Positions 20,145 to 34,261 of a stretch of 48,051 nt of DNA are shown here, in pieces. The position numbers and the translations under genes are program-made. The stretch lies in assembly GCA_001872455.1 (NCBI GenBank), contig MNXJ01000023.1, forward strand, positions 1-48,051, read 5' to 3'. The notes beneath the pieces were generated by a model. That model saw only the letters and a list, made by a program, of their open reading frames with translations, made no database searches and was not told the origin of the DNA. The first letter of the stretch is position 1; each line of letters starts with the position of its first letter. The stretch is from Anaerolineae bacterium CG2_30_57_67 (GTDB lineage Bacteria; Chloroflexota; Anaerolineae; Anaerolineales; Villigracilaceae).

Positions 20145-20564
20145 CTACACAAACGCGCTCATTACCACGATAAATGCCCACAGCGCCAGGCAGAACGTGA
20201 TCAGCGCAAAAACGCTGGTTGCGATTCCCGTCACCGTGGAGCGAATCCAACCGGATAGCCCTACACCTGCCAAAAAGAAAACAAACCCGATGACTGCCAC
20301 CAGAAAGGCCCAGGTACCCAACCCATCCAGCGAAGCAATTTGCTGGTTCAGTTCTGCTGTCGCTGCCCCAATCAACACAAATGCAAAAATCGTGAAGAGA
20401 AACATCAGCGTTGCCAGGGTAAAAATGATGATGACGGCAGAGGTCAGCCGCCCTTTGCGCTCCCCGGCCAGAAGTTGCACCACCGCTGAGAAGGCGAACC
20501 CGGCCAAAATTCCGGCCAGTGTTGCAATCTGATTGGCTTCTTGCAAAATGTTGTCAATGGGCAT
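20145..20564 (-). CDS. Four-helix membrane protein
   Basis: A 139-residue protein. Hydrophobic helices lie near residues 14-32, 44-68, 82-105 and 113-137 (for example VIIIFTLATLMFLFTIFAFVLIG). No named family recognised. The ATG at 20564 is chosen for the AAGGAGCATTTTC upstream; the longer in-frame start adds 17 Cys/Thr-rich residues with no ribosome binding site. It stands alone between two terminator or repeat regions. Confidence 0.75.
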   Translation of the reverse strand: MPIDNILQEANQIATLAGILAGFAFSAVVQLLAGERKGRLTSAVIIIFTLATLMFLFTIFAFVLIGAATAELNQQIASLDGLGTWAFLVAVIGFVFFLAGVGLSGWIRSTVTGIATSVFALITFCLALWAFIVVMSAFV

Positions 20565-20612
20565 GAAAATGCTCCTTGTACAATTTGTGGCGCAAATTTT
20601 GGTTTGCGCGTA

Positions 20613-20660
20613 CAAAAAGCAAGAGATGACCGTCTTTGTCTGCGGTCATCTCTTGCTTTC
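20613..20660 (-). terminator. Terminator of the SPFH-HTH gene
   Basis: AAAGCAAGAGATGACCG (20616-20632) pairs with CGGTCATCTCTTGCTTT (20643-20659). On the minus strand the stem is followed by TTTTTG, ending transcription from the gene at 20688-21755. Confidence 0.82.
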
Positions 20661-20687: not shown

Positions 20688-21755
20688 TTATCCCCTCAGA
20701 AACTCTTCGAGTGAGCTTTTGCTGATGCGATAGGCGCTGCCCAATTTCTTGGCCTTCAAATCGCCAGCGGTGATGGCGGCGATGACATCTTCCTCCGAGA
20801 CGCGCAGAACTGCCGCCGCCTCGCTGGGAGTCATCACGTCGGCCATGCCACCCGCCGCCGGGGCAGACCCGCCTGCCGGCTGTGAAGTCGGCTGGCTGGC
20901 CTGATTCGCCATACCGCCCGCCAGCGCCTGATTCATGATGTTGCCGATGCCCATCCCCGCGCCGATGCCTGCCGTCAGACCGGCGCCGCCGCCGGGATTT
21001 TGAGCCGCGTCGCGCATCGCATCCGCCGCCTGCAGTTGGGTATAGACGTTCATATCCAACATGCCCATATCGCGCAATTCCTGCGCCGATTTTTCCGAGG
21101 GTTTCAGGTTGCCAATGTAGAAAGTGGTCAGCGTTAGCCCCATTGCGCCGAAGTCGTCTTGGGCTTTGGCGCGCACGCCCGCGCCCAATTCTTCGGTCAG
21201 GCCAATCAGTTCCACCACGCTTTTCTTCGCGCCGGTTTCGCCCAGCAAATCCTGGAATTTGGAGAGCAGCATGGTGCGCATGCGTTCTTCAATTTCACTG
21301 GTGCGGAAGATGGCCTGCTTGCCGACAATGTTGGTGACAAACAACTGCGGGTCGCTTACCCGGAAGGTGTAGGTGCCGAAGCCTTGCAGCAGCGCCACGC
21401 CCAACCCCATGCCGGGGTTGCGCACAATAATCGGCTGGGGCGTGCCCCATTTTTTATTCTGAAATTCCTTGGTCGAAACAAAATAGACTTCCGCCGGGAA
21501 AGGCGTGCGGTCGTTGAACGCTTTCCCGATGAAATCAATCACTTTTGGAATGTTGGCCGTCGCAATCGTGTGCATGCCTGGCCCGAAGACATCCAGCGCC
21601 AGCCCGTTGCGGAAGAAAACCGCCGCCTGGCCCTCGCGCACAATCACCTGCGAGCCGATGCGGTAGTCGCCGATGCTGGAATCGTCCGGGAAACGATGGA
21701 CAATCTCATCCGTCATTTCGTTGCGATATTCAATTACATCAAAGATTCGAGCCAT
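20688..21755 (-). CDS. SPFH-domain protein with C-terminal excisionase-type HTH
   Basis: A 355-residue protein. The SPFH/Band 7-like region occupies about residues 25-250 (VIVREGQAAVFFRNGLALDVFGPGMHTI, GFGTYTFRVSDPQLF), as in YdjI-type virion-core-like proteins. A Gly/Ala/Gln-rich linker (about 255-305) follows. It ends with an excisionase-like helix-turn-helix (MTPSEAAAVLRVSEEDVIAAITAG, then KLGSAYRISKSSLEEFL). Relatives usually end in a zinc ribbon or GYF domain. The linker and HTH suggest a scaffold that binds DNA or a peptide; this is inference. An AAGGAGAGAAGC site precedes the ATG. Confidence 0.85.
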   Translation of the reverse strand: MARIFDVIEYRNEMTDEIVHRFPDDSSIGDYRIGSQVIVREGQAAVFFRNGLALDVFGPGMHTIATANIPKVIDFIGKAFNDRTPFPAEVYFVSTKEFQNKKWGTPQPIIVRNPGMGLGVALLQGFGTYTFRVSDPQLFVTNIVGKQAIFRTSEIEERMRTMLLSKFQDLLGETGAKKSVVELIGLTEELGAGVRAKAQDDFGAMGLTLTTFYIGNLKPSEKSAQELRDMGMLDMNVYTQLQAADAMRDAAQNPGGGAGLTAGIGAGMGIGNIMNQALAGGMANQASQPTSQPAGGSAPAAGGMADVMTPSEAAAVLRVSEEDVIAAITAGDLKAKKLGSAYRISKSSLEEFLRG

Positions 21756-24464: not shown

Positions 24465-24570
24465 TTACCGCAGAGACGCAAAGAAGGCAGAGATTTTCTG
24501 CTTTTTCCGGGAAAAATTGGCGTTTACTGCCGAAAAAGCATTTTCTGCGCTTTGTATACTCAGCGGTGAA
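24465..24570. repeat. Decayed CCGCAGAGACGC-type inverted repeat element
   Basis: The left arm has TTACCGCAGAGACGCAAAG and AAGGCAGAG; the right arm has TTCTGCGCTTTGTATACTCA followed by GCGGTGAA. They are imperfectly complementary. The outer ACTGCAAAA (left) and TTTTTGCAGT (right) extend the symmetry. The CCGCAGAGACGC..AAGGCAGAG pattern is a recurring palindromic repeat in many environmental bacterial genomes. This copy has lost much of its pairing. Confidence 0.55.
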
Positions 24571-24621
24571 TGGGTTTTTGCAGTAGAGCCACCTATATTG
24601 AAAACAAAAAGGGAGAGAGAT

Positions 24622-25914
24622 ATGCCAGATAATGCGCAAGTTGCACTTTTCATTGATTACGATAATATCGAAATCAGCGTGCCAGAAGTCATGGGGAAAG
24701 AAATCGAAGTGGATTGGCAGGTGGTGCTGGAAACGGCCACCCGCATCGGGCGGATTGCCCTGCGCCGCGCCTACGCCGACTGGGCGGTGTATCCGGCCCG
24801 TCAGCGCGAAATGCTGGGGCTGGGCATCGAACTGGTGCATGTTTCCAGCAAACGCGGCAAAAATGCCGCCGACATTCGCATTGTGATGGACGCGCTGGAC
24901 ATGATTAACCGCGGCACGCCTGTGACGCATGTTCTACTGGTGTCGGGTGATGGCGATTTCACCGAATTGGTTCATCGTTTGCGCACCGAGGGGAAAACCG
25001 TGGTCGGTCTGGGCGTCAGTGGCACCAGCGCCGAATACCTGGTCAATTCTTGCGACGAATTTATCTACTACGACAAATTGGTCGCGCCCGCGCCCAAGCA
25101 GCCCACCAAGCCCGTCAAAAACGGCAAGCCCGAAGAACCCGCCGAACCCGTGGTTTCGTTTGACATCAGCGAAGCCCGCCAGCTTTTGCGCAAAGTTTTG
25201 GAAGCCGATGAAGAAGAGTGGATGTTGGCCGCCGAAATCAAACACGTCATGCTGCGTCTCAACCCGGCCTTCAACGAACGTAACTACAATTTCAAAAGTT
25301 TCAAAGACTTTATGCAGGCCCAAAAAGACATGCTGGAAGTACGCCTGAATGACAACCAGCAAATCGAAGCTCGCCTGATTGAAACCACCGAAGCGTCAGA
25401 TTCGCAGGCGCCCGACGCCATGCTCGATCGCTATCTGCAAATTTTGGAATCGCTCAAAATTCGCATGACGCCTAACGAATTCCGCCCGGCGATTGTTTTT
25501 AAGTTCTACGAAATGCTCAAAACTAGCCCGGATTTGACTCTGACGCAGTTGAAAGACAAGGTACAAGCGCACTTTGAAGAGAATGCCCCGCACGTCAAAA
25601 TGCAGCACATCACCGAAACGGCGCACCAACTCTTCCATACCTATTGCTTTACTTTTGACCAGGAACAGGCCAATTATGAAGCCGATGTGCGCTTGTGGGA
25701 CAAGAAAGTATCGCTGACCCCGGATGTCAGCCGCTCCACCGACTTGCTTGATAAGTGTGACCGCGCACTGTTGAGCCGCCTCGGCAAGGCGCTCGGCTCC
25801 ACCGAAAAAATCAACAAAGAAGTCGCCGCCCGCCTGCTGTATGGCAGTTTCCGCGGCCAGCGCATGTTGGAACACGTCACCCACTTGCTGCAGGGATTAA
25901 AAGCCTCCAAATAA
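24622..25914 (+). CDS. NYN-domain ribonuclease-like protein with LOTUS/OST-HTH domain
   Basis: A 430-residue protein. The NYN (PIN-like) domain occupies about residues 1-155: VALFIDYDNIEI with Asp12 and Asp14, GKNAADIRIVMDALDM, then HVLLVSGDGDFTELVHRL. These are the acidic residues of the predicted nuclease site. A Pro/Lys linker follows. An OST-HTH/LOTUS-like RNA-binding domain spans about 180-250 (ISEARQLLRKVLEADEEEWMLAAEIKHVML to FKDFMQ). The C-terminal third is helical and probably contains a second, divergent domain. A role in RNA turnover is likely from the family, but no target is known. GGGAGAGAGAT precedes the ATG. Confidence 0.85.
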   Translation: MPDNAQVALFIDYDNIEISVPEVMGKEIEVDWQVVLETATRIGRIALRRAYADWAVYPARQREMLGLGIELVHVSSKRGKNAADIRIVMDALDMINRGTPVTHVLLVSGDGDFTELVHRLRTEGKTVVGLGVSGTSAEYLVNSCDEFIYYDKLVAPAPKQPTKPVKNGKPEEPAEPVVSFDISEARQLLRKVLEADEEEWMLAAEIKHVMLRLNPAFNERNYNFKSFKDFMQAQKDMLEVRLNDNQQIEARLIETTEASDSQAPDAMLDRYLQILESLKIRMTPNEFRPAIVFKFYEMLKTSPDLTLTQLKDKVQAHFEENAPHVKMQHITETAHQLFHTYCFTFDQEQANYEADVRLWDKKVSLTPDVSRSTDLLDKCDRALLSRLGKALGSTEKINKEVAARLLYGSFRGQRMLEHVTHLLQGLKASK

Positions 25915-28061: not shown

Positions 28062-29555
28062 TTACGGTAGCAGGCGTTTGGCGGTGTAAATGTAGGTTGG
28101 CCGCCGCCGCGCGCCCGTCACCGGGTAAAAAACATCCTCGTCCGCGAAAACGCTGCCCGTCGGCGTGTAATAGCGCTCAAGTTCCCCGCAGCAATAATTC
28201 CACCGCGAGTCGAAAATGATCAGGTCGAATTTTTGCTGGCGGATAGCGTCATCAAAAGCCGATTGGATGCGCGTCTGCGCTGCTGAGGGCTGATTGCCGC
28301 GCAAAATATCCCACAGCGCTGACTGGTGACTGTAACTGCGCTTTCCGGCCAGGCTGGCAAGGTAGCCATGATCTGGCAGGTAAACTTCCCCGTGGGCGCT
28401 GGCGATTAAGTTGAGCAAAGACTCCCCGGCCAGACGGTCTGCCGCGTTGGGAAGTTGTTGATAGGGGTTGTAGGCCAGCACCAAAAATTGAACCAGGCAG
28501 GTGGCATAGAGCAATTTTTGCAGGGTCTGGCGTTCTGTCAGCGTGATTTTTTGCAGAAATTGGTCCGCCGCCGAAAGCCCCAGCCCGAAAAGAATTGTGG
28601 CGACGGCGTAGGCGGGCAAAAGAACATTGTTGTAGCCGCCGACTTTGGCGCGCGTCAGAAATGCGCCCGCCACGCCGCCGAGGGTGACGGCCAGCCAAAA
28701 ACAGGCCCGCTGGCGATTTTCAGCGCCCAAGAAAAAAAGCGCCATCATGCTGACAATTGGCAGGTGCGCCAGTAAATCTTCCTGCCAGAAAGCGAAAAAA
28801 TAGTAGGGCAGCCATTCGGTTTGTTGAAAAAGCAGGCCGTAAACGTAGTAGGAGAACCAGCCGCCGCTGGCGCGTTCCAGCAGCAGGCTGACAGCGGTCA
28901 CCAGCATCAGCGCGACGCCCAGGGCGGTCAGGCCGTGCTGCCAGTTTTGCCAAATCAGCCAGAGGAAAACGGGGGCGCAGACAATCAGGGCGGTTTGCTT
29001 GGTGAGAAAAGCCAGGGCGGCGAAACTTCCGGCGGCGAGTGCGCTGCCGGTGGAGATGGGGCGCCGGGCGGCAAGCAGGAACATCAGCCAGAGGGCGAGG
29101 AAAAGCGTATCCACGCGGGCAACATCCAGCCAGGCGCCGGTTACCCGAAAGGTGGCGGCGAACAGCCCGGCGGCGAGAAATCCCATCAGTCCGGAATGCG
29201 TTTCGCGGCGGACGATTTCAAAAATTCCCCAAAACACCAGCAGCGACGCCAAAAAGGAAATCAGACGCAGTGCCAGCAGGCTGCTGCCGGTTAGTTTTGC
29301 CAGCCCGGCGGAGAGGTAGAAATAGAGCGGCGGGTAGAGAAACGGCGTAAATTCCAGCGTTGGCGCGCCGTATAGCTGGCCGGTTTGCAGCAGGTGGGTG
29401 ACTTCGTCGGCCAGGCCGCCTTCGGTCCATTCCAATTCAAATGGGTAGGGGATGCGCTGGCTGGCAAGCCACACATAAATCAACAAAGAAAGCGCCGCGC
29501 TTAAAATCAGCGACGCTTTCAAAATTTGCAGGGTGGAAATTCGCCGGGCGCTCAA
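28062..29555 (-). CDS. GT39-like membrane glycosyltransferase
   Basis: A 497-residue protein with about ten transmembrane helices. The first outer loop carries YPFELEWTEGGLADEV, the acidic motif of PMT/ArnT-type GT-C enzymes. TPFLYPPLYFYLSAGLAKL and WLDVARVDTLFLALWLMFLLAARR follow. A C-terminal soluble domain begins near residue 370. Such enzymes transfer sugars from polyprenyl-phosphate donors to extracytoplasmic acceptors; the acceptor is unknown. It overlaps the molybdenum-subunit gene by 4 nt. Confidence 0.8.
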   Translation of the reverse strand: MSARRISTLQILKASLILSAALSLLIYVWLASQRIPYPFELEWTEGGLADEVTHLLQTGQLYGAPTLEFTPFLYPPLYFYLSAGLAKLTGSSLLALRLISFLASLLVFWGIFEIVRRETHSGLMGFLAAGLFAATFRVTGAWLDVARVDTLFLALWLMFLLAARRPISTGSALAAGSFAALAFLTKQTALIVCAPVFLWLIWQNWQHGLTALGVALMLVTAVSLLLERASGGWFSYYVYGLLFQQTEWLPYYFFAFWQEDLLAHLPIVSMMALFFLGAENRQRACFWLAVTLGGVAGAFLTRAKVGGYNNVLLPAYAVATILFGLGLSAADQFLQKITLTERQTLQKLLYATCLVQFLVLAYNPYQQLPNAADRLAGESLLNLIASAHGEVYLPDHGYLASLAGKRSYSHQSALWDILRGNQPSAAQTRIQSAFDDAIRQQKFDLIIFDSRWNYCCGELERYYTPTGSVFADEDVFYPVTGARRRPTYIYTAKRLLP

Positions 29556-31744
29556 TTCAACTTTCCCAGCGCTTTCAGCACGCGCTCGGGCGTCAGTGGA
29601 AATTCGTCAATCCAGACGCCGGTCGCGTCGTGGATGGCGGCGGTGATGGCCGGGGCGAGCGGTAGGTAGGGCAGTTCGCCCACGCCTTTGGCGCCCCACG
29701 GGCCGTTTTCATCGGGAATTTCCACAATCACGGTTTCCATTTTTTCGGGAATGTCCAAAATGGTGGGGATGAGATAGGTGCTGAGCTGGTCGGTGAGCGG
29801 TTTTCCGTTGCGGCTGACGAAGTTTTCCTGGATGACGTAGCCCTGCGCCTGGACGATGGCGCCTTCCACCTGGCCCTGCACTTGCGCCGGGTTGATGGCT
29901 TTGCCCACGTCGTTGGCGCTGACCACTCGCAGCAGGCGCACATGGCCGAGGTCGGTATCCACTTCCACTTCGACGGCTTGCGCGGCGTAGGCGTACATGA
30001 AGTTGGGCATACAGAAGCCGGTCTCCTTGTCCATCGGCGTGGTGGGTGGGGCCAGGTAGGTGAATTCGGCCAGCGCCGGGCGCTCTGCGCTTTGCCACTT
30101 CGCCAGCGCCGCTTCTGCCGCGCCCTTGACGGCGTTGCCCGACATGACCGTCAGCCGCGAGGCGGAGGCCGAACCGGCGTTGCCCATGTCGAGCGTGTCC
30201 ATCGTCACCATCTGAACATTTTCCAGCGGAACACCGGTCACTTCGGCGGCGATTTGCGCCAGAATGGTGTGGTTGCCCTGGCCGACTTCTGCCGCGGCGC
30301 ACCAGACCGTGACCGATTCGACTTTTTTCGCGCCGAAAATTTCAACCCGCGCCCAGCAGTTTTCCTTGTAGCCAAACGAAAAGCCGATGTTTTTGAACCC
30401 GGCGGCAAAGCCACGCCCGCGCGCCAGGGCAGAATTGGGCTGCCGCGCGCCTGCTGCCGGTTGCGCCCAGCCGAATTTTTCGGCGGCGGCCTGCATCACG
30501 TCCAGCACGGTTGGCCGGTTGGGTGGCGGCGTGCCGACGGCCAGCGTGTCCGTCATTTTGAGCGCGTTGCGGCGGCGCATTTCCAGCGGGTCGAGCCCTA
30601 GTTTTTCGGCCAGTTTGTTCATCTGGCTTTCGGCCATGAAGAGGGCCTGCGGTGCGCCGAATCCGCGAAAGGCCGCGCCTGGCACATTATTCGTGTATAC
30701 GCCAATCACGTCAGCCTGCATATTCGGGATGAAGTACGGCCCGCTCTCGGTGATGGTCGAATTTCCCAGCACTTTGTTGGTGGTGTACATGTAAGCGCCC
30801 GCGTCGGCGATGATGATGTTTTCGGCGGCGGTCAGCGTGCCATCGCGTTTGGCGCCCCATTTGGCACGCAGAATCATGGCGTGGCGTTTGCCGTGGCCGA
30901 TGATGGATTCCTGCCGCGACCAGATGATTTTGACCGGGCGGCGCAGTTTCCAGGCCGCCAGCGCCAGCACAATTTGCACCGATAAATCTTCGCGCCCGCC
31001 AAACGCCCCGCCGATGGCCGGGTACTGTACCCGCACTTTTTCCTCGCTCAGCGCCAGGGCGTGGGCGATTTGTTTGCGGTCAACGTGCGTCCACTGCCCG
31101 GCGGCCAGAACCGTCAGTAGGCCGTTTTCGTCCACAAAAGCCAGCCCGGCTTCGGGCTGCAGGTAGGCATGTTCCTGCATCGGCACGCGATATTCGGCTT
31201 TCACAATCACATCGGCTGCGGCAAAGCCTTGCGCCACATCGCCCTTGCGAATTTTGTCGTGGACGCAGATGTTGTCGGCGCCGCGTTCCGGGTGGAGTAA
31301 AACCGCGTCCGCCGCCAGCGCGCTTTCCGGATCGGCGAGAATCGGCAGGTCTTCGTATTCCACCACCATCAGCCGCCGCGCCTGCTCTGCCGCCGATTCG
31401 CTTTCGGCGACGATGGCGGCTACCTGGTCGCCGGTGAAGCGCACAATCGCGGCGTCCACCCGGCCTTCCGCGGGGGCCAGGCCGCACAGCACGGGCTGGT
31501 CGGGAATCTGCAGCCCATATTCATTGACCGGTACATCGGCGGCGGTGAAGATTTTTACCACACCGGCCACTTTTTCGGCCTGGGTGGCGTCGAAGCGCAA
31601 AATGCGGGCGTGCGGCCTGCCTGCGAACAGAATTTTCATGTGTAACATGCCGGGCATCGTCAAGTCACCGGAATATAAAGTTTCACCGGTGACTTTGCCA
31701 GCTGCGTCAATGCGCGGTGCAGATTGTCCAACGAGGGTGGTCAT
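29552..31744 (-). CDS. Xanthine dehydrogenase-family molybdopterin-binding subunit
   Basis: A 730-residue large subunit of a molybdenum hydroxylase. It opens with RIDAAGKVTGETLYSGDLTMPGMLHMKILFAGRPHARI. GGAFGGREDLSVQ, GAAFRGFGAPQALFMAESQM and the C-terminal GAKGVGELPYLPLAP follow, with the catalytic glutamate at about residue 690. The start at 31744 is chosen because upstream residues are not family-like. The true substrate (a purine, an aldehyde or another heterocycle) cannot be read from sequence. No XdhC/MoCo-insertion gene lies nearby. Confidence 0.9.
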   Translation of the reverse strand: MTTLVGQSAPRIDAAGKVTGETLYSGDLTMPGMLHMKILFAGRPHARILRFDATQAEKVAGVVKIFTAADVPVNEYGLQIPDQPVLCGLAPAEGRVDAAIVRFTGDQVAAIVAESESAAEQARRLMVVEYEDLPILADPESALAADAVLLHPERGADNICVHDKIRKGDVAQGFAAADVIVKAEYRVPMQEHAYLQPEAGLAFVDENGLLTVLAAGQWTHVDRKQIAHALALSEEKVRVQYPAIGGAFGGREDLSVQIVLALAAWKLRRPVKIIWSRQESIIGHGKRHAMILRAKWGAKRDGTLTAAENIIIADAGAYMYTTNKVLGNSTITESGPYFIPNMQADVIGVYTNNVPGAAFRGFGAPQALFMAESQMNKLAEKLGLDPLEMRRRNALKMTDTLAVGTPPPNRPTVLDVMQAAAEKFGWAQPAAGARQPNSALARGRGFAAGFKNIGFSFGYKENCWARVEIFGAKKVESVTVWCAAAEVGQGNHTILAQIAAEVTGVPLENVQMVTMDTLDMGNAGSASASRLTVMSGNAVKGAAEAALAKWQSAERPALAEFTYLAPPTTPMDKETGFCMPNFMYAYAAQAVEVEVDTDLGHVRLLRVVSANDVGKAINPAQVQGQVEGAIVQAQGYVIQENFVSRNGKPLTDQLSTYLIPTILDIPEKMETVIVEIPDENGPWGAKGVGELPYLPLAPAITAAIHDATGVWIDEFPLTPERVLKALGKLN

Positions 31745-31749
31745 CCCAG

Positions 31750-32184
31750 TTACCTTTTGTAGCGTTTTATGTTTACACGCGGCGCGGGAACATCCAGCGG
31801 GCCGTAGCGCGGTGGCCCCATCAAACGATAAATCATCGCATAAAGCAGCGAGAGCAGACCCGAGAAAATCAGCAATGCCACAATAAAGAACAAAATTTTG
31901 ATCTTGATGTCGGGGTAAGTTGCCACCCAATGCAACGCATTGTTCAAGATGGGAACGTACGACAGCCAGGACGGCAGGCTAAACCCGCCGCGCAAGCCGT
32001 AAAATAGCGCCTTGATGTTTTGGTCGGGCAAGGGTTTTAGCATTTCCACAGCCACTTCGCCTGCCGCCCACGACATGACCGGCGTCATTAAAATCATTAC
32101 AAAGCCGATTCCGCGCCAAATGGGGTGAATGGACGGCGCTTCTTTGGCTCCCTTTGGTCCAAATGAATTTGATTTTGAAGACAT
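31750..32184 (-). CDS. Membrane protein embedded in the molybdenum hydroxylase operon
   Basis: A 144-residue protein with two strong hydrophobic helices (about residues 22-44 and 94-118) and a basic C-terminus rich in Arg and Pro. No named family recognised. It lies between the fused FAD/2Fe-2S subunit and the molybdenum subunit, 5 nt before the latter's start, so it is very likely co-expressed with them. It may anchor the enzyme at the membrane; that is inference. Confidence 0.75.
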   Translation of the reverse strand: MSSKSNSFGPKGAKEAPSIHPIWRGIGFVMILMTPVMSWAAGEVAVEMLKPLPDQNIKALFYGLRGGFSLPSWLSYVPILNNALHWVATYPDIKIKILFFIVALLIFSGLLSLLYAMIYRLMGPPRYGPLDVPAPRVNIKRYKR

Positions 32185-32194
32185 GGTTTTCTCC

Positions 32195-33598
32195 TTAGGC
32201 TCTGCTGGCCGTTTCCACGGCCTGAATAATTTTGGCGTAGCCGGTACAACGACACAAATTACCGGTCAGCGCTTGCTCAATTTCAGTTTTCGTTGGGCGG
32301 GGACGTGCCTCCAATAATTTTACCGCCGACATGACAAAGCCCGGCGTGCAGTAACCGCACTGCACCGCGCCCGCTTGCACAAAAGCCGCCTGTACCGGGT
32401 GCAGTTTGCCATCAGTTGCCAGCCCTTCTACGGTCACAATTTCGGCGCCATCGGCGCGCGGCGCGGGCGTCAGACAGGCCATCACTGCCTTGCCATCCAG
32501 AAACACCGTGCATGCGCCGCATTCGCCCTCGGCGCAACCTTCCTTGGTGCCGGTCAGTCCGGCCTCCTCGCGCAACAAACGCAGGAGCGATTTTTCCTGT
32601 CCGCTGGTAAAGATGTAGTTTTTTCCGTTTATTTTTGTGTGGATGTCTCGCACCTGTGCGGGGGAGGCGGCTGGCAGCGGCTCGGATTTAATAGCCTTTG
32701 GCTGGCCCCACAGCAAGACCGGCTCGGCTGGCAGTTGGTTCTGGCCGCTGAGAAGCGCTTCCAGCCCGCGCCGGGCAATCACCCCGCAAGTATGACGGCG
32801 GTAGCCCGCCGAGGCGCGCACATCGTCAATCGGCTTGGCCGCCGTTTGAACCAATTCGGCGGCGCGCGCGATGGTTTCAGCGGAGAGTGGCTTGCCCGTC
32901 AGAAACGCTTCCGCTGCGCGCGCGTGAATGATGGTTGGCGCCACCGCTCCGAGCGTGATGGCGGCCTGCTCAACGGTATCCCCGTTCAGCCGGAGAATGA
33001 TGGCGATATTCACCAGCGAAATGGCCTGGGCGCGGCGTAGCGCCAGTTTGATGAAAATTCCCCGCTCGCGCGGTGTCAGCGCCCGAAAGGAAATTTCTGT
33101 CAGAATTTCATCGGCCTGCATCACAGTTTTGCGCACGCCGCTATAAAATTCGCGCAGCGGCACAACTCGCTCACCGCGCGGAGAAAGCAGGGTCAGGCGG
33201 GCGTCCAGCGCCATGAGCGGGGTGATGGTGTCGTTGGCGGGGCTGGCGGTGATGATGTTCCCGGCTAGCGTGCCGCGGTTGCGAATTTGCGGCGAGCCGA
33301 CTTCCCAGGCGGCTTGCGCCAGCGGCCGGGCGCGCTCGTGCAGCAGGCCGCTGGCGACGACGGCATTGTGCGTTACCAGTGCGCCGAGGTGGATGATGCC
33401 GTTTTCGTCGAGGCGGATTTCGTCCAGGCCGGGGATGCGGGTGACATCAATCAGCGTGTTCAGGTTGGGGCGCAGGCCGCGCTCCAGTTCCAAAAGCAGG
33501 TCGGTGCCGCCGGCCACAATCCGCGCGGCGGGGGCGCGCTCGGCCAGGAGTTGAACGGCTTCTTGCAGGCTGGTAACGTTGAAGTAGGTTTGCCACAT
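32195..33598 (-). CDS. Fused FAD-binding and 2Fe-2S subunit of a molybdenum hydroxylase
   Basis: A 467-residue fusion. Residues about 1-290 are a CoxM/XdhB-type FAD domain (RIVAGGTDLLLELERG, NRGTLAGNIITASPANDT). A Pro/Ala linker follows. Residues about 305-467 are a CoxS/XdhC-type iron-sulfur domain: plant-type 2Fe-2S ligands Cys355, Cys360, Cys363 and Cys375, then QCGYCTPGF and NLCRC for the second cluster. These domains are separate subunits in most bacterial family members. The ATG at 33598 has CACTGGAGAATCG upstream, and a TATAAT box lies at 33635-33630. Confidence 0.9.
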   Translation of the reverse strand: MWQTYFNVTSLQEAVQLLAERAPAARIVAGGTDLLLELERGLRPNLNTLIDVTRIPGLDEIRLDENGIIHLGALVTHNAVVASGLLHERARPLAQAAWEVGSPQIRNRGTLAGNIITASPANDTITPLMALDARLTLLSPRGERVVPLREFYSGVRKTVMQADEILTEISFRALTPRERGIFIKLALRRAQAISLVNIAIILRLNGDTVEQAAITLGAVAPTIIHARAAEAFLTGKPLSAETIARAAELVQTAAKPIDDVRASAGYRRHTCGVIARRGLEALLSGQNQLPAEPVLLWGQPKAIKSEPLPAASPAQVRDIHTKINGKNYIFTSGQEKSLLRLLREEAGLTGTKEGCAEGECGACTVFLDGKAVMACLTPAPRADGAEIVTVEGLATDGKLHPVQAAFVQAGAVQCGYCTPGFVMSAVKLLEARPRPTKTEIEQALTGNLCRCTGYAKIIQAVETASRA

Positions 33599-33683
33599 GC
33601 GATTCTCCAGTGAGGGCGGTATGCCTGCATTATAAAAGAAAACCAACCGCGCAACGCGGCATTTATCGCGTGGCTGCGCCGGG

Positions 33684-33739: not shown

Positions 33740-34261
33740 TTAGCCCGCGCTGTTGATTTGGTCGTAGCGATGCTCAAAAGTTTGCGTGGCTTCGCGCGCC
33801 AGGCTGGTCAGGTTGCGGATGGTGGCGGGCAGGGCTTCGGGGTTGCCCAGGCTGCCTTCCAGCGTATCGAGCGCGGCGCTGATGCCGTCGGCAAATTGGA
33901 AGAAGGCGGTATCAAACTGGTAGAGTTTAGTTAGTTCGTCTTCATTGATTTTGACGGCGTCGAAGAAACCAGAGTAGCCATAGGTGGCGGTACGGATTTT
34001 GTCGGCAAAGGTGCGCAGTTGCAGGGCGGCTTTTTCCATCTCGTCAATGTATTCGATGCCGCCGCTGGCGATGACCTCGCTTTGCAGGGCCGAAAGGCGT
34101 TTGTAGAGTTCTTCAAAGCGGCGCGAGACGCTGTCGCGCAACAATTTATCGGCGGCGCGGCGATTTTCACGTTCGATGTAACCGCCAAAGCCGGGAATAT
34201 AGGCCAAAAGTTTGCGCAGTGGGTCTTGGTCGCCGCTGACTGTGCCAAAGAAATCGCTCAT
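33740..34261 (-). CDS. Conserved hypothetical helical protein
   Basis: A 173-residue, mostly helical, acidic soluble protein starting MSDFFGTVSGDQDPLRKLLAYIPGF. The middle is coiled-coil-prone (RRFEELYKRLSALQSEV) and no membrane segment is visible. I do not recognise a named family. AAGGAAAAGGAGGCACC-like sequence precedes the ATG (the minus strand reads CAGGAGGCACCCC). A TATAAT at 34317-34312 with TTGATT 18 nt upstream provides its promoter, and a terminator follows. Confidence 0.7.
   Translation of the reverse strand: MSDFFGTVSGDQDPLRKLLAYIPGFGGYIERENRRAADKLLRDSVSRRFEELYKRLSALQSEVIASGGIEYIDEMEKAALQLRTFADKIRTATYGYSGFFDAVKINEDELTKLYQFDTAFFQFADGISAALDTLEGSLGNPEALPATIRNLTSLAREATQTFEHRYDQINSAG

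Follow-up and report, generated by a model that had tools for sequence, protein, structure and literature searches.

An SPFH protein with an excisionase-type helix-turn-helix tail, conserved across the Anaerolineae

The SPFH-HTH gene and its surroundings

We have analyzed a 48,051-nucleotide stretch of the genome of Anaerolineae bacterium CG2_30_57_67 (contig MNXJ01000023.1), called the window throughout, with a focus on a gene that joins an SPFH domain to a C-terminal helix-turn-helix (HTH). The gene occupies 20688..21755 of the minus strand, a strand not named in the first-pass annotation of this DNA, and encodes from an ATG start a protein of 355 aa (P0001). Residues 19-228 (21072..21701, minus strand) constitute a Band_7_1/SPFH domain that matches Pfam PF13421 with an E-value of 7.3e-47 and 160.2 bits against a gathering score of 24. 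This confirms the earlier likening of the N-terminal part to YdjI-type SPFH proteins; the PF13421 profile also matches in Bacillus subtilis. A linker rich in Gly, Ala and Gln follows at about residues 253-306 (20838..20999, minus strand), and the protein ends in an HTH_17/excisionase-type winged HTH at residues 307-355 (20691..20837, minus strand), with the acidic recognition helix SEEDVIAAI at 320-328. The HTH is found above cut-off both by Pfam (HTH_17, PF12728, residues 307-354, E 1.6e-11) and by NCBIfam (TIGR01764 'excise', residues 308-354, E 4.8e-9).

The structure was predicted with AlphaFold2 from 64 orthologues. In a model of mean pLDDT 75, the SPFH fold has human stomatin (9z7u) as its top Foldseek match (E 4.9e-10), and flotillin, prohibitin and HflK/C are matched as well. 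Residues 253-301 of the linker are poorly ordered (pLDDT mostly <50). The C-terminal segment, for which failure to model as an HTH had been named beforehand as the outcome to watch for, was predicted at pLDDT 92-96 over residues 311-355, as helices at 310-317 and 321-329, wing strands at 336-338 and 341-345, and a last helix at 346-354. Domain search and structure prediction thus agree on the excisionase-like HTH that had been proposed, and the proposed linker is also present. The closest PDB sequence match of the 64-orthologue profile, a weak one (E 0.0045), is Gp37 (4J2N), which we take to be the Xis of phage Pukovnik. Pfam gives only Band_7_1, Band_7 and HTH_17 in this protein, and the C-terminal coiled-coil domain of flotillins was not found. 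An N-terminal hydrophobic segment is likewise absent, the maximum Kyte-Doolittle value in residues 1-48 being 0.26. The protein does not belong to the flotillins of the FloA/FloT type.

Between the SPFH domain and the tail, the linker opens with a Gly-zipper-like stretch, GGGAGLTAGIGAGMGIGN (residues 253-272, about 20940-20999 of the window, minus strand). The pattern GxxxGxxxG occurs in 101 of 106 homologues, with all tail types, compared with 25% in shuffles of the same composition.

Just downstream of the SPFH-HTH gene, 20145..20615 (minus strand) encodes a small protein that has four hydrophobic segments. Its homologues adjoin the SPFH gene in four near relatives (L094-L097) and in L079, and it could conceivably act as a membrane anchor. 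Membrane proteins of kinds other than the integral membrane partners YdjG and YdjH occur as possible partners in many relatives, and here the four-segment protein is adjacent. On the plus strand, the window also encodes an NYN domain protein with an OST-HTH/LOTUS domain (24517-25914). Farther along, at 33740..34261 (minus strand), lies the gene of a helical protein of 173 aa (P0002), which belongs to no Pfam family and matches our profile A1 with an E-value of 5.3e-62; we refer to it as the helical partner.

The neighbourhood was surveyed by clustering the ORFs around 58 SPFH orthologues. Outside the window's family the helical partner gene usually stands directly upstream of the SPFH gene, mostly at a distance of 4 to about 110 bases. 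In the window the two are 12 kb apart, and the partner gene stands beside a molybdenum-hydroxylase operon (MoCoBD and a fused FAD/2Fe-2S subunit, 29552-33646, minus strand) that lies between them. Related molybdenum-hydroxylase genes are found near the SPFH gene in other members of this family. As xanthine dehydrogenase/XdhC genes separate SPFH and partner in the window's family only, we interpret them as inserted into a gene pair that is older. Xanthine dehydrogenase and XdhC were accordingly rejected as partners, being near SPFH only in this family save for one match in L064. The genes adjoining SPFH in the window, miaA and obg among them, are not conserved in that position. MiaA, Obg, YraN and a glycosyltransferase were considered as functional neighbours and rejected, since none stands beside SPFH in the relatives' loci examined, except for a glycosyltransferase match in L057. 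At many loci a DUF2207 membrane protein and a second protein, A2, are encoded ahead of the helical partner. The A2 family (L049 3935-4474, L065 7000-7587 and homologues) has two hydrophobic segments and four cysteines resembling zinc ligands. It shows a weak TrmB/PCI-like match and possibly contains a winged helix; the one member tested had no Pfam match above cut-off. A profile search did not find A2 in the window's own genome, and most close relatives have lost the A2 gene but retained the HTH.

Distribution, selection and tail exchange

The SPFH gene is present in 38 of the 41 nearest genomes; 37 of the matches reach residue 353-355 and the 38th is partial. A contig scan that reached close relatives returned only records of Chloroflexota type. 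Calculated over 12 close orthologues, pN/pS comes to 0.12 in the HTH and 0.09 in the SPFH domain, while the linker is the fastest-evolving part of the protein (0.31). The HTH is under purifying selection. Its retention to the end of the tail in these relatives, together with the pN/pS value, means that the fusion is no chance product. A phage excisionase remnant or a gene-fusion error was also considered for the tail and is ruled out by the same pN/pS value and by class-wide conservation.

As had been suggested, the domain combination was surveyed across the Chloroflexota. Good SPFH orthologues (E about 1e-48 or better) occur in 66 of 400 genomes; the HTH is the tail of 41 of these, and the other 25 have zinc ribbons, SHOCT-type tails or an unassigned helical tail. 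PF09851 (SHOCT) was confirmed in L061 and the remaining SHOCT-type tails were assigned by resemblance; sub-threshold Pfam matches of these tails to GvpG were disregarded. The first-pass annotation had expected zinc ribbon or GYF domains as the usual tails, and relatives do have zinc ribbons, joined by the SHOCT type; no GYF domain was seen. It had also raised absence of the HTH from orthologues, which does not occur within the window's order and is common outside it, where many orthologues have another tail. The helical tail type is seen in L064 (5229-6434) and L067 (4779-6023), in which a helical-looking C-terminal domain, ILQRLAALEVELSKPDANLATIKQLRKEITETYPWLAEPLK..., replaces the HTH, SHOCT or zinc ribbon.

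A search with the HTH only, over 120 genomes of the class, added several families to those with the HTH form. All 32 matches with E <2e-8 fall in frames of SPFH length, except two in short frames that sit at a contig end or a frame break; weaker matches are generic HTHs. The HTH subtype is thus almost private to the SPFH-HTH protein, and the architecture is class-wide in the Anaerolineae (Chloroflexota). Carriers of the gene include Leptolinea tardivitalis YMTK-2 and Leptolinea sp. HRD-7 (L131 and L129).

On a tree of the SPFH domain only, the tail labels require at least 10 changes among four states, compared with 24.7 in shuffles, and the HTH label requires 4; this is a quick tree with several long branches, on which the exact number of changes is unsure and the SHOCT-type L048 was scored as 'other'. 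These changes mark the tail slot as modular. Within the window's order, the HTH tail is old and stable.

Two multi-TM proteins (L227 966-1703 and L231 403-1065, from genomes G495 and G471) carry an acidic HTH_17 of the SPFH-tail kind behind a Pro/Ala-rich linker, and the SPFH match in the same genomes ends ahead of the HTH. The tail type is therefore separable from SPFH and recurs on membrane-side proteins, an arrangement that, judged from the sequences, suits a docking tail on the membrane side.

A constant helical partner and the absence of PspA

The helical partner is conserved across the Anaerolineae and further in the Chloroflexota. Homologues are about 175 aa long and share the motif IPGxxGYxEKExRRxADKLLR. 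Eight residues are invariant in 56 of them (Y28, R34, D38, R42, A92, L110, D117 and R165). The model consists of four long helices with a mean pLDDT of 88. No Pfam match was obtained, Foldseek gave nothing at E <0.001, and VIA-align matched common helical bundles. In comparison with PspA/ESCRT-III, CdvB is matched at just E 0.6, and the other matches are generic helical bundles. On the predicted model, these comparisons indicate neither a known nor a new fold.

A profile search found the helical partner in 39 of the 41 near genomes; the two that lack it, G030 and G038, both lack the SPFH gene. Among the 400 Chloroflexota genomes, 58 have both genes, 8 SPFH only, 2 the partner only and 332 neither, counts that include related genomes; by family, both are found in 18, SPFH only in 3 and the partner only in 1. 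The partner occurs in 40 of the 41 genomes with the HTH form. It also accompanies the zinc-ribbon and SHOCT forms, and is therefore uninformative on what the HTH binds.

In Bacillus subtilis, YdjI requires membrane proteins and recruits PspA, and the genes form the operon pspA-ydjGHI (PMC8581546). PspA (PF04012) was considered as a partner here and rejected: it was found neither in the window's own genome nor in 39 of the 41 close genomes, in searches whose controls matched. The PspA-recruiting role of YdjI is thus not transferable to the SPFH-HTH protein.

The recognition helix and the wing

HTH_17/excisionase-type domains normally read DNA. Over a set of 80 distinct SPFH tails, the charge of the recognition helix (VSEEDVIAAI; net charge taken over residues 320-330) averages -3.2 and ranges from -5 to -2. 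Other HTH_17 domains from the same genomes (n=20) have a mean of +1.1 and a range of 0 to 3, with no overlap; 13 of these 20 belong to one regulator family, and 13 additional generic domains agree. The same holds farther afield, with charges of -4 to -1 in twelve SPFH tails from other families and of 0 to 3 in the 13 generic HTH_17 domains from the wider Chloroflexota. Residue 323 is Asp in 79 of the 80 SPFH tails and Glu in one, where other HTH_17 domains mostly have Thr. In the alignment with the Xis 4J2N (VSTKTVRNYI against VSEEDVIAAI) it is likewise a Thr that takes the position of Asp323. The neutral-to-basic recognition helix, with Thr/Ser and Arg/Tyr as DNA-side residues, that marks a DNA-binding HTH_17 domain is missing in the SPFH tails. 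The usual DNA-reading face seems, from these residues, to have been lost, while the HTH fold is still strongly selected.

The wing is basic in the SPFH tails and the comparison domains alike. In the 80 SPFH tails K334 is invariant, position 336 is always K or R, K337 is found in 77 and R343 in 78, and this conservation leaves room for nonspecific contact with DNA or with lipid headgroups. The acidic recognition helix favours protein docking over DNA reading. The first-pass annotation had proposed that the HTH domains cluster either DNA or a peptide partner; an acidic helix in every SPFH tail examined weakens the former, and a peptide or protein partner fits better. On this sequence evidence, the tail probably docks protein more than DNA.

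A proposed mechanism and its alternatives

We class the SPFH-HTH protein as a variant of the YdjI-like (Band_7_1) SPFH scaffold, probably of peripheral membrane type, with an HTH tail. By analogy with solved SPFH rings it may form a multi-copy ring, in which the SPFH domains would assemble into a ring, or into a patch of cage wall, at the cytoplasmic side of the membrane. The scaffold would bind the membrane, and the helical partner would join it, occupying the place that PspA has in B. subtilis. The HTH domains, one hung from each subunit by a flexible linker, would together provide multivalent docking for proteins, recruiting a client or membrane receptor, and would read no DNA sequence. Since zinc ribbons and SHOCT-type tails fill the same slot in related lineages, the SPFH core and helical partner are probably the constant part, and the tail the part that sets which client or receptor is engaged. 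The proposal builds on the observed architecture, HTH conservation, acidic recognition helix, tail exchange, partner co-occurrence and absence of PspA. That a constant membrane scaffold of SPFH core and partner recruits a protein client or receptor through its HTH tails, with no reading of DNA sequence, is in our judgement about evenly balanced between right and wrong. Our fuller reading is more tentative: a PspA-independent membrane-surveillance scaffold of the Chloroflexota, formed by an SPFH assembly with a helical protein as yet undescribed, and in which the HTH, originally a DNA-binding domain, has become a protein-docking tail throughout the class, one of several interchangeable tails that define the client.

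Two of the alternatives keep the HTH in the service of gene regulation or DNA. A ring of HTH domains might bind DNA mainly through the basic wing and so anchor the nucleoid, or a particular locus, at the membrane. The HTH_17/Xis fold, the conserved basic residues of the wing and the avidity expected of a high copy number speak for this, but the charge of the recognition helix, Asp323 in place of Thr and the fact that relatives fill the same slot with modules that are not known to read DNA (SHOCT) make it improbable. We consider it just as improbable that the protein is a stress-responsive regulator, whose HTH would bind a transcription factor or its operator and stay at the membrane until set free by stress. 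The clusters of relatives do encode A2, with its two hydrophobic segments, weak winged-helix/PCI-like match and zinc ribbon, so that regulators near membranes fit the theme; however, A2 has mostly been lost among close relatives that keep the HTH, no conserved regulator gene was recognized beside the SPFH gene in the window's family, and the acidic helix also disfavours direct DNA binding.

The tail might instead serve self-association, the acidic helix of one subunit docking on the next subunit's basic wing and thereby closing or stacking SPFH rings with no outside client. Helix and wing are indeed complementary in charge, and for SHOCT, which fills the same slot, an oligomerising role was once put forward, but that role was tested and not supported (PMC3581485), and we regard self-association as rather unlikely.

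The locus has a wider bearing. PF13421 SPFH proteins are widespread and the best-studied case depends on PspA, whereas here a large lineage keeps such a protein with another constant partner and without PspA; the general job of SPFH scaffolds is thus open to study independently of the phage-shock response. In the HTH tail, nature also offers a clear example of a DNA-binding fold that is under strong selection although it seems no longer to have DNA-reading chemistry.

Comparison with known systems

We know of no paper that describes the combination of SPFH with an excisionase-type HTH, and a literature search on SPFH plus excisionase returned only an unrelated paper. One of the nearest counterparts is YdjI of B. 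subtilis, which has a PF13421-type SPFH domain and, like the protein described here, no N-terminal membrane segment (PMC8581546). The Firmicutes homologue is described, under the name YdjL, as having a C-terminal zinc ribbon (PMC11237479). The present system differs in its HTH tail, in the lack of PspA from the genome and in having an undescribed helical protein as its constant partner; the wider cluster, where present, adds DUF2207 and A2-type membrane proteins, the latter with two hydrophobic segments, a possible winged helix and a zinc ribbon. The SPFH-HTH protein may act as YdjI does, collecting a helical protein at the membrane in the role of a peripheral scaffold, outside the YdjI-PspA system.

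With Xis/HTH_17 proteins such as 4J2N the tail has in common the fold, the profile match and a similar LKA-K-x-G wing; it differs in the acidic recognition helix, in having Asp and Ala/Ile for the Thr/Arg DNA-side residues, and in its fusion to SPFH. MamR, a magnetosome protein (NF040990), likewise has an HTH_17 domain and a role in a membrane organelle, but MamR stands alone as a small protein of about 72 aa (PMC3905215), and the NF040990 profile matches our HTH only below threshold (E 1.7e-5; it scores 25 where the cut-off is 100), so that the HTH is not a member. Similar in design are the SHOCT- and zinc-ribbon-tailed Band_7_1 proteins, which share the SPFH core, a similar Gly-rich linker and an exchangeable small C-terminal module (PMC3581485, PMC11237479); the first account of SHOCT found it fused most often to the Band_7 family to which the SPFH-HTH protein belongs (PMC3581485). 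In the Anaerolineae protein, that module is an HTH.
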